Source of the DNA: an uncultured bacterium
GTDB taxonomy: Bacteria; Cyanobacteriota; Vampirovibrionia; Gastranaerophilales; Gastranaerophilaceae
DNA: 64,000 bases
Assembly (NCBI GenBank): GCA_949286705.1
Contig: CASEDF010000004.1
Span: 1-64,000 of the forward strand
Direction: 5' to 3'
The notes under the pieces: generated by a model
Seen by the model: the letters and a program-made list of their open reading frames with translations, nothing else
The model's database searches: none
What the model was told of the DNA's origin: nothing
In this document: positions 51,360 to 54,025 of the stretch, in pieces
Layout of the letters: each line of letters starts with the position of its first letter
Numbering within the stretch: position 1 is the first letter of the stretch
Made by a program: the position numbers and the translations under genes

Positions 51360-52043
51360 TCAGCGCACGGAAACGTATTTTACGTAGGGTTTTAAAATAT
51401 CCGTAATTTCTTTGAATTCGCCATCAGTATAAGTTGTTTCCGTCATCATTTTTGGATCTAAAGTTTTGGACGGAACAAATTTTTGAAGATAATATTTTTC
51501 GGCACCTTTTATAAGTTTGCCGATTGCACGAAAATCATCATAGCTCAATTGCGATTTTACAACTGTTGTCCTGAATTCATAGCCGATACCGGAGGTCATA
51601 ATAATATCAATACTTTCGCGGATTTTTTCGGAATTAATTTTGGAATTGGTAACAAGCGGATATTTTTCAATCGGGGCTTTTATATCCATTGCAATGTAAT
51701 CCAAAAAAGGCAATAACCCTTTAATTTTTTCGGGGAAAGTGCCGTTGGAATCCAATTTAACAAGAAAACCGAGTTTTTTAATCTCTTTTATAAAATCTTC
51801 CAAATCAGACTGGAGGCAGGGCTCACCGCCTGTAATTACGACCCCGTCAAGCTTGCCGCGTCTTGTATTTAAAAATTCAAGAAAGGCCGGCACAGTCCAT
51901 GCCGGCTCATTTCTTACAGCTATAAGTTCAGGATTGTGGCAGTAACCGCATCTGAAGTTACACCCCTGCGTAAAAACGATTGTGCTGATTTTATCGGGGA
52001 AATCCAATAACGATGTTTTTTGAACTCCGCCTATTTGCAGCAT
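51360..52043 (-). CDS. nrdG: Anaerobic ribonucleotide reductase activating protein
   Basis: A radical SAM enzyme that makes the glycyl radical on NrdD. The 227 residues show the cluster motif CNFRCGYC (C28, C32, C35), GGEPCLQ (about 87) and the N-terminal IGGVQKTSLLDFPDKIS of the NrdG2 subfamily. It overlaps the nrdD 3' end by 13 nt, so translation is coupled, and it is under the same riboswitch. Confidence 0.93.
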   Translation of the reverse strand: MLQIGGVQKTSLLDFPDKISTIVFTQGCNFRCGYCHNPELIAVRNEPAWTVPAFLEFLNTRRGKLDGVVITGGEPCLQSDLEDFIKEIKKLGFLVKLDSNGTFPEKIKGLLPFLDYIAMDIKAPIEKYPLVTNSKINSEKIRESIDIIMTSGIGYEFRTTVVKSQLSYDDFRAIGKLIKGAEKYYLQKFVPSKTLDPKMMTETTYTDGEFKEITDILKPYVKYVSVR

Positions 52044-53881
52044 TCGTTTATTACAAATTCCTTTCTGTCCTTGAATTCACGTTTTTTGCCTTTATTCCAC
52101 TGGGTTACGGGTCTTATATAGCCCACAACACGTGAATAGACTTCGCATTCGGCGCCGCATTCAGGGCAGGTAAAGTGTTCGCCTGCAACATAACCGTGAT
52201 TCGGGCATGTGCTGAATGTCGGTGAGAATGTGAAATACGGGAGGTGATAATTGTTGCACACTTTTTTAACAAGGTTTTTCATAGTTTCAATGTTATGAAT
52301 TCTTTCCCCTGCAAAAATATGTAAAACAGTACCGCCTGTGTATTTAGTCTGCAAATCATCCTGATGATCAAGCACTTCAAAGATATCATCGGTATAATTT
52401 ACCGGCAACTGAGTTGAATTTGTGTAATAAGGATATTTTTCCTTATCAAGTTTAGCAAGCCTGTAGGAAGTACCTTCACCCGGTGTGGCTTCAAGGTTGT
52501 AGTTGTGGCCGGTTTCTTTCTGGAATTCTTTAATTTTTTCTCTCATAAAGTCCATAACCTCAACCGCAAACTGTTTTCCGCGGAAGCTGCCGATGTCATC
52601 GGCTAATAAGTTCAAGCATGCTTCGTTCATACCTATCAAACCGATTGTAGAGAAGTGGTTTTTCCAGTATACACCAAATCTTGATTTGATATCCCTCAGG
52701 TAGAATTTTGTATAAGGATAAAGATTTTTGTCAGTCAAATCTTCCAATAAAGCTCGTTTGATTTCCAAACTTTCTTTAGCAAGCTCCATTTTTTCAGCCA
52801 ATTTAGATAAAAATTCACCTTTAGTTTCGGAATTTGCAGCGATTTTCGGAAGATTAATCGTTACAACACCTACAGAACCTGTCAGAGGATTTGAACCGAA
52901 CAATCCGCCGCCTCTGTATTCAAGTTCTCTGTTGTCAATTCTTAATCTACAGCACATAGAACGTGCATCCTCCGGTGACATATCGGAATTGATGAAGTTT
53001 GAGAAATACGGAATGCCGTATTTTGCAGCCATTTCCCATAAACCTTCGATATTTTTATTATCCCAGTCAAAATCTTTTGTAATATTATATGTCGGAATCG
53101 GGAATGTAAATACTCTGCCTGAATTATCGCCTTGCATCATAACTTCGAAGAACGCTTTATTCAGCATATCCATTTCTTTCTGGAAGTCTTTGTAAGTTTC
53201 TTCCATCAATTCGCCGCCGATAATAACAGGCTGTTCCGCATAATATGAAGGAACCGTCAAATCCATTGTGATATTTGTGAAAGGTGTCTGGAACCCTACA
53301 CGTGTCGGAACATTCATATTAAATACGAATTCCTGCATAGCCTGCTTAACTTGCTCATAGGTCAAATTGTCATATCTGATAAACGGCGCAAGAAGTGTAT
53401 CAAAATTTGAGAAGGCTTGAGCGCCTGCAGCTTCTCCCTGCATTGTATACATAAAGTTTACAACCTGACCTAAGGCTGTTCTGAAGTGTTTTGCAGGAGC
53501 GCTTTCAATTTTACCTTTAACTCCGGTAAAACCTTCAGTCAATAAATCTTTTAAATCCCAGCCCACACAGTATACTGATATGATATTCAAATCATGGATA
53601 TGAATATCACCGTTTATATGAGCGTTTCTGATATCAGCCGGATAAATTTTATTAAGCCAGTAATTTTTGCTGATTTCGGAAGCTATATAATTATTAAGCC
53701 CCTGAATAGAATATGACATGTTAGAATTTTCATTAACCTGCCAGTCAAGCTGCTTCAAATAATTATCGACAAGCGTAATATTTGAATCTTTATCAGAAGC
53801 CTGAACAGGATTTGACATGAAAGCTCTTTTTGCGGATCCCAAATCGACAACATTGTTGTCCTTCAAAATTGCATTGTTCAT
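52031..53881 (-). CDS. nrdD: Anaerobic ribonucleoside-triphosphate reductase (class III)
   Basis: NrdD makes deoxyribonucleotides without oxygen or cobalamin. The 616 residues have the catalytic barrel, a C-terminal zinc site (CPNHGY and CPECGAEC) and the glycyl radical G587 in RVVGYIRPV. The N-terminal ATP-cone of E. coli NrdD (about 100 residues) is absent: the start MNNAILKDNN is followed almost directly by the catalytic fold, and the bases upstream are riboswitch. Allosteric activity control by ATP/dATP may therefore be missing. GGGAG lies 7 nt before the ATG. nrdG follows in overlap. Confidence 0.95.
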   Translation of the reverse strand: MNNAILKDNNVVDLGSAKRAFMSNPVQASDKDSNITLVDNYLKQLDWQVNENSNMSYSIQGLNNYIASEISKNYWLNKIYPADIRNAHINGDIHIHDLNIISVYCVGWDLKDLLTEGFTGVKGKIESAPAKHFRTALGQVVNFMYTMQGEAAGAQAFSNFDTLLAPFIRYDNLTYEQVKQAMQEFVFNMNVPTRVGFQTPFTNITMDLTVPSYYAEQPVIIGGELMEETYKDFQKEMDMLNKAFFEVMMQGDNSGRVFTFPIPTYNITKDFDWDNKNIEGLWEMAAKYGIPYFSNFINSDMSPEDARSMCCRLRIDNRELEYRGGGLFGSNPLTGSVGVVTINLPKIAANSETKGEFLSKLAEKMELAKESLEIKRALLEDLTDKNLYPYTKFYLRDIKSRFGVYWKNHFSTIGLIGMNEACLNLLADDIGSFRGKQFAVEVMDFMREKIKEFQKETGHNYNLEATPGEGTSYRLAKLDKEKYPYYTNSTQLPVNYTDDIFEVLDHQDDLQTKYTGGTVLHIFAGERIHNIETMKNLVKKVCNNYHLPYFTFSPTFSTCPNHGYVAGEHFTCPECGAECEVYSRVVGYIRPVTQWNKGKKREFKDRKEFVINECCK

Positions 53882-53884
53882 AAA

Positions 53885-53990
53885 AAATCTCCCAGATTAC
53901 CGTGGTTGTACTACTAACCTACATAAGCATTCCGACTATAACGGCTGCGGTCCAGTGAGGGATTTTCACCCATGCTTTCCTTACATAAGT
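53885..53990 (-). promoter_or_regulatory. Cobalamin riboswitch upstream of nrdD
   Basis: The minus-strand leader contains, in order, GGAAAGCAT, GGGTGAAAATCCC, CACTGGACCGCAGCCGT and AGTCGGAATGC, the conserved blocks of the cobalamin aptamer (GGUGAAAAUCC, a CCGCxxC core and the B12 box AGUCGGAAUGC). AAGCAT pairs with ATGCTT to close the core. Between aptamer and start codon, GGTT-AGTAGTAC-AACC may form a small hairpin 15-30 nt before the ribosome site, so control is probably translational. In other bacteria B12 riboswitches shut off a B12-independent isozyme when cobalamin is present. No terminator stem is apparent. Confidence 0.75.
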
Positions 53991-53996
53991 ATCATG

Positions 53997-54025
53997 ATTT
54001 TATAACTATCATGCAAATTTGTCAA
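53997..54025 (-). promoter_or_regulatory. Promoter of nrdD-nrdG
   Basis: Minus-strand TTGACA (54020-54025) and TAAAAT (53997-54002) are 17 bp apart, placing the transcription start near 53990, just before the aptamer. The leader is about 109 nt. Confidence 0.75.

Follow-up and report, generated by a model that had tools for sequence, protein, structure and literature searches.

We conclude from sequence comparison that the leader of nrdD in the window (the whole stretch of DNA analysed, 64,000 nucleotides) is in all likelihood a cobalamin riboswitch of the AdoCbl-II class that acts as a translational OFF switch. A promoter is followed by a compact cobalamin aptamer and by nrdD-nrdG, all on the minus strand. 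The features of the locus outside the aptamer are as follows.

54020..54025, minus strand: −35 element TTGACA (promoter scan; also seen ahead of the aptamer in related loci)
53997..54002, minus strand: −10 element TAAAAT, spacer 17 (promoter scan)
53888..53893, minus strand: Shine-Dalgarno (SD) sequence GGGAGA, read from the sequence, with its 5′ part inside hairpin P13
52031..53881, minus strand: nrdD, class III ribonucleotide reductase, 616 aa (NF006126 990 bits, TIGR02487 589 bits, Pfam NRDD 696 bits)
51360..52043, minus strand: nrdG, radical SAM activase (TIGR02495 NrdG2 205 bits, cut-off 131)

The preliminary description had placed a strong promoter before the leader and nrdD-nrdG behind it, and both were borne out. 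The promoter TTGACA-17-TAAAAT (54025..53997, minus) matches the consensus at 11 of 12 positions, in a scan that overall was not above chance (3 found versus 3.8 expected), and related loci likewise carry TTGACA and an AT-rich −10 element ahead of the aptamer. Judging from the position of the −10 element, the 5′ end of the RNA would lie at about 53990. As the closing stem of the aptamer begins at nearly the same place as this predicted start, the more extensive periphery of class I would not fit. The nrdD start codon is the ATG at 53881 (minus), nrdG overlaps the end of nrdD, and profile matches identify the pair clearly as a class III enzyme and its activase. The nearest NrdD relatives are in Candidatus Gastranaerophilales metagenome-assembled genomes from gut and rumen, with identity up to 99%. 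This assigns the window to the non-photosynthetic sister lineage of cyanobacteria and supports the earlier suggestion of a gut organism.

All main cobalamin aptamer blocks had also been reported for the leader, together with a proposal to compare it with covariance models. No match to RF00174, the canonical cobalamin riboswitch, was found across the whole genome, and an Rfam scan of the whole window returned no family at gathering score. However, a local search with the related model RF01689 (AdoCbl-II) matched positions 53997..53917 with 34.3 bits (E 2.3e-6), spanning model positions 1–81 without truncation; this is 2.2 bits short of the gathering cut-off of 36.5 bits, which is a curator's threshold and not a biological feature. 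Thus, the blocks are present for the compact AdoCbl-II layout but not for the larger class I layout. At the nrdD leader position, 11 of the 18 related loci scanned exceeded the RF01689 cut-off (37.0–47.5 bits), a count that includes L113, whose record is more distant. L056 has an additional match (1248-1324, minus), which represents a second riboswitch distinct from that of nrdD. RF01689 matched in 54 of 59 relatives. We also used a clade model, R1, built from an alignment (A1) of 33 nrdD leaders. R1 gave the window aptamer (53994..53914) 97.4 bits, a score that is not independent, the window itself being among the 33 training rows. Of 80 related loci (window not counted), 52 carry the element ahead of nrdD according to the same model, with scores of at least 68 bits; many of these 52 are training rows of R1 or copies of them. 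These results indicate that the Rfam cut-off misses members of the AdoCbl-II subclass in Gastranaerophilales. The aptamer and its parts are the following.

53914..53994, minus strand: AdoCbl-II-type cobalamin aptamer, 81 bases (RF01689 match, clade model R1, covariation)
53980..53990 (5′ strand) with 53917..53927 (3′ strand), minus strand: closing helix, 11 pairs (two-sided changes at 9/11 pairs in 33 leaders)
53959..53971, minus strand: GGG(UGAAAAU)CCC hairpin (two-sided changes at 2/3 pairs)
53945..53955, minus strand: CUG/CAG hairpin carrying L5 (two-sided change at 1/3 pairs)
53951..53948, minus strand: L5 loop letters ACCG (vary jointly with L13)
53932..53944, minus strand: CCG/CGG hairpin (invariant pairs)

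Alignment A1, which includes the window, was compared with 500 shuffles. The four-helix structure was paired in 92.3% of cells, as against 80.9% in shuffles; two-sided compensatory changes occurred at 12 of the 20 pairs (7.0 in shuffles); and the covariation score was 0.309 (0.114 in shuffles). None of the 500 shuffles reached the observed value for pairing, two-sided changes or covariation score, and sliding the partner strand by 1–3 columns reduced pairing to 36–49%. Across the aligned leaders the stems covary and the core is nearly invariant. Together with the full-length structural match to RF01689, this covariation establishes the aptamer fold. Long insertions were seen in some otherwise conserved leaders, in the CCG/CGG hairpin of L048, L081 (2557-2683), L084 and L089 (1760-1892) and in the GGG/CCC hairpin of the L058 nrdD leader (2861-2960).

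Downstream of the aptamer, a small hairpin covers part of the SD sequence.

53892..53905, minus strand: P13 expression-platform hairpin CCA/UGG (hairpin scan of 50 leaders)
53902..53899, minus strand: L13 CGGU, complementary to L5 ACCG (read from the sequence)

All 50 leaders scanned contain such a hairpin, with a loop beginning CG and a 3′ arm at or adjoining the SD sequence, even as the stem varies (CCA/UGG, CCU/AGG, CUU/AAG, CUUUA/UGGAG and others). Under a stricter rule of SD overlap, P13 was found in 43 of 49 leaders versus 7.7% of composition-preserving shuffles. In the window's group, L5 ACCG goes with L13 CGG (CGG[U/A]) in 17/17 leaders. L5 UCCG goes with a CG-bearing L13 in 33/33 leaders, 32 of which have CGNGA. 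In paralogous riboswitches L5 GCCG is mostly accompanied by CGNGC or CGGC, and in a single paralogous case (L021) L5 GGCG is accompanied by CGCAC. As the letters of L5 and L13 change on both sides, the kissing loop is supported; a kissing loop of this kind with an expression platform is a feature of AdoCbl-II riboswitches, and here both loops switch jointly in orthologues and paralogues. The compensatory changes thus establish P13 and its L5–L13 pairing.

We propose the following mechanism. When cellular coenzyme B12 is sufficient, it would be bound by the aptamer, the ligand presumably being adenosyl- rather than methyl- or hydroxocobalamin. Loop L5 (ACCG) would then pair with L13 (CGGU) of P13 and lock up the SD sequence, such that no NrdD and, by coupling, no NrdG would be made, and deoxynucleotides would come from the B12-dependent reductase NrdJ. 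When B12 is short, P13 would open and the glycyl-radical class III enzyme would take over.

The same leader could in principle work through transcription attenuation instead of translation. Terminators end other corrinoid riboswitches (PMC10653944), and the second riboswitch of this genome has a UCCUCU...AGAGGA-UUUUUU hairpin just 5′ of its gene. We nevertheless regard attenuation as improbable at nrdD, where no terminator-like site was found in the leader and where the P13 stem has only three pairs, its 3′ arm being part of the SD sequence 11 bases before the ATG.

Slightly less probable still is an ON switch, in which the SD sequence of the ligand-free RNA would pair with the CCCUC strand of the aptamer and would be freed by B12 binding. 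When the window leader was folded without constraints, the SD region did pair with the aptamer in the minimum-energy structure, and forcing the aptamer to form raised the computed openness of the SD sequence from 0.17 to 0.50. However, over 39 leaders the effect was small (0.36 to 0.48), and in several there was none. Single-sequence folding did not favour the aptamer (z −0.45 for the whole leader; mean cost of the aptamer fold relative to the minimum, 3.7 kcal/mol), being an energy-based method that can represent neither the kissing loop nor the ligand; the SD sequence is hidden in the free fold as well, so folding leaves the sign undecided. What argues against the ON switch is the conservation of P13 over the SD sequence with compensatory changes and a loop that varies with L5, which points to an OFF bound state, and the nature of the other targets. 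In relatives, AdoCbl-II riboswitches precede metE (L224, L225) and BtuB-like receptors (L005, L010, L025, L030, L221, L222, L231), names that come from reading translations except for the L231 region, which has a TonB plug match (G009:C14). B12 typically represses both kinds of gene, that of the B12-independent methionine synthase MetE and those of BtuB-like receptors, and both are classic targets of OFF switches. The metE riboswitches belong to genus g22 (G036, G042), whose nrdJ-positive genomes have no riboswitch before nrdD.

The preliminary description had predicted either nrdJ or cobalamin import. A class II nrdJ is indeed present in the window's own genome (G000:C4:241553-243310; TIGR02504 739 bits; NF006417 985 bits, cut-off 961), whereas import was not supported: no FecCD/BtuC-type permease and no TonB plug domain (BtuB-type receptor) was found in the genome. 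Class I NrdB and a PduO-type adenosyltransferase (PF01923) were likewise absent from this assembly, which is 96% complete, so that single absences are not proof. Two BtuR/CobO-type adenosyltransferases (PF02572; 203.5 and 200.8 bits) are encoded on contig C6, and by profile match a route from cobalamin to coenzyme B12 is therefore present. No cob/cbi cluster was recognised by eye beside these two genes. Uptake of cobalamin would not be strictly required if the corrinoid were made de novo.

We mapped nrdJ, R1 and nrdD in 286 genomes of the order. Among the best 150 nrdD genes, 85 are in genomes with nrdJ and 65 in genomes lacking it, and the riboswitch precedes nrdD in 76 of the 85 but in only 5 of the 65, two weak matches of 22.7 bits being counted as present. 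These numbers include a direct search of the contigs of 13 seemingly negative genes from nrdJ-positive genomes, the other two negatives (G036, G042) having been searched separately. A direct search of the contigs of 20 nrdD genes from nrdJ-negative genomes revealed no riboswitch at E up to 1. For the window's own type of nrdD (type A), the proportions were 68/70 with nrdJ and 5/24 without; type A genes lacking the riboswitch in nrdJ-positive genomes numbered 6 among the R1 matches listed (at least 55 bits) and 2 after the direct contig search. The difference persisted at the genus level (25/27 versus 1/9; Fisher p 1.3e-5). As for the exceptions, nine nrdD genes in nrdJ-positive genomes have no riboswitch and five nrdJ-negative genomes retain one; in four of these five, other members of the genus do carry nrdJ, and the remaining one (G051) is a genome of 66% completeness. 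Tree-aware pair contrasts, which took in all five exceptions and only a sample of the rest, gave 3 for, 0 against and 4 uninformative (sign test p 0.25), agreeing in direction but without power. Few of the type B nrdD genes (~760 aa), which align poorly with type A, were included in the tree. By raw and genus counts, the riboswitch co-occurs with nrdJ across the compared genomes. Together with the SD-covering P13 hairpin and the L5–L13 pairing, this co-occurrence supports repression, the sign given in the preliminary description, and repression would be the expected direction in vivo. Five genomes of one genus (G004, G005, G007, G008, G012) have nrdJ, with nrdD and class I NrdB undetected, and their DNA synthesis may rest wholly on B12.

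The least credible alternative takes the conserved leader to be a riboswitch that has degenerated, or else a structured RNA with a different ligand: the window scores under the Rfam cut-off and an almost continuous 11-pair closing helix replaces the 7-base joining strand of the model, but orthologues exceed the RF01689 cut-off, the core is nearly invariant between covarying stems, and the riboswitch accompanies nrdJ, all of which argues against this reading.

The commonest AdoCbl-II target in the lineage is an uncharacterised two-gene operon, and the sole other AdoCbl-II match in the window's own genome (47.8 bits) sits before a copy of it.

L167 10025-10104, minus strand: second AdoCbl-II riboswitch (contig C4 of the window's genome, beyond the window)
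L167 9265-9960 and 7788-9296, minus strand: the two open reading frames of the operon after the second riboswitch (own genome, contig C4)

The first protein, of ~230 aa, has an invariant CPHG-x5-CP-x-C motif, and the second, of ~500 aa, has three predicted membrane segments. Searches of Pfam, NCBIfam and PDB with both proteins returned only weak or coiled-coil-type matches. The pairing of riboswitch and operon recurs in most of the relatives that have a riboswitch, among them genera that lack nrdJ. Some relatives (L053, L056; G014) have a second AdoCbl-II riboswitch that lies upstream of the one at nrdD and on the other strand; on contig C64 of G014 (10046 minus, 11690 plus) this riboswitch is followed by the CPHG gene, which runs divergently from nrdD. 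In one leader of the second-riboswitch kind (L007 1380-1500, minus), a UCCUCU...AGAGGA hairpin with U6 behind it extends as far as the start codon. This hairpin could be a terminator and an SD cover at once, and its UCCUCUU could pair with the aptamer 5′ strand AAGAGGA. It is conceivable, although we would not bet on it, that the AdoCbl-II regulon of Gastranaerophilales includes in this operon an undescribed system for corrinoid acquisition or handling, here the missing B12 supply route that feeds NrdJ. With no standard uptake genes found in the window's genome and a second riboswitch target present, the question of how B12 is supplied becomes open to testing.

Taken together, a compact B12-sensing RNA very likely shuts off the B12-independent reductase when B12 is available to NrdJ, which would link the synthesis of DNA precursors to cobalamin status in a gut lineage that is common and uncultured. 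The cobalamin itself may originate in the surrounding community, in which case DNA synthesis would be linked to community cobalamin, as had been suggested. The order also offers a large natural comparison, in which the riboswitch precedes nrdD mainly where a B12-dependent alternative exists, and includes several relatives with nrdJ and no detectable nrdD, for whose DNA synthesis B12 may be essential.

In Streptomyces, B12 reportedly controls a B12-independent reductase, nrdABS, with NrdJ as the alternative, and this control is said, going by the title of the report, to be of transcription; nrdABS is a class I enzyme, whereas that of the window is class III. The Streptomyces nrdABS B12 riboswitch (Borovok 2006) is cited in PMC5962746 and PMC8620254. 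A close parallel is found in Desulfovibrio vulgaris and Desulfuromonas, in which B12-element riboswitches precede nrdDG (PMC545781). There the target, the class III isozyme, the presence of nrdJ in the same genome and the proposed logic are all alike; the window differs in its phylum, its compact AdoCbl-II layout and its lack of an RF00174 match. Propionibacterium acnes has cobalamin riboswitches of nrdAB and nrdDG, with an nrdJ that is not riboswitch-controlled (PMC3848588), and in Chlorobium a cobalamin riboswitch precedes nrdD (PMC8620254). In both, as in the window, a leader riboswitch lies ahead of B12-independent reductase genes, in lineages other than that of the window. The P. acnes nrdAB transcript appears to stop early, whereas in the window the SD sequence itself is covered. 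This resembles E. coli btuB and env8HyCbl, where L5 and L13 form a kissing loop that stabilises P13 and occludes the ribosome binding site (PMC10653944). The env8HyCbl pairing has a bulge, and most orthologues of the window likewise have one extra base in L13; in contrast, the window's group has four contiguous L5–L13 pairs (ACCG/CGGU) and no bulge. Relative to RF01689, the window has an almost continuous closing helix and a score just under the cut-off. Our literature search on Gastranaerophilales or Melainabacteria with cobalamin riboswitches found no paper. B12 control of nrdDG is already known elsewhere, and both the lineage and the riboswitch subclass described here are new for it.
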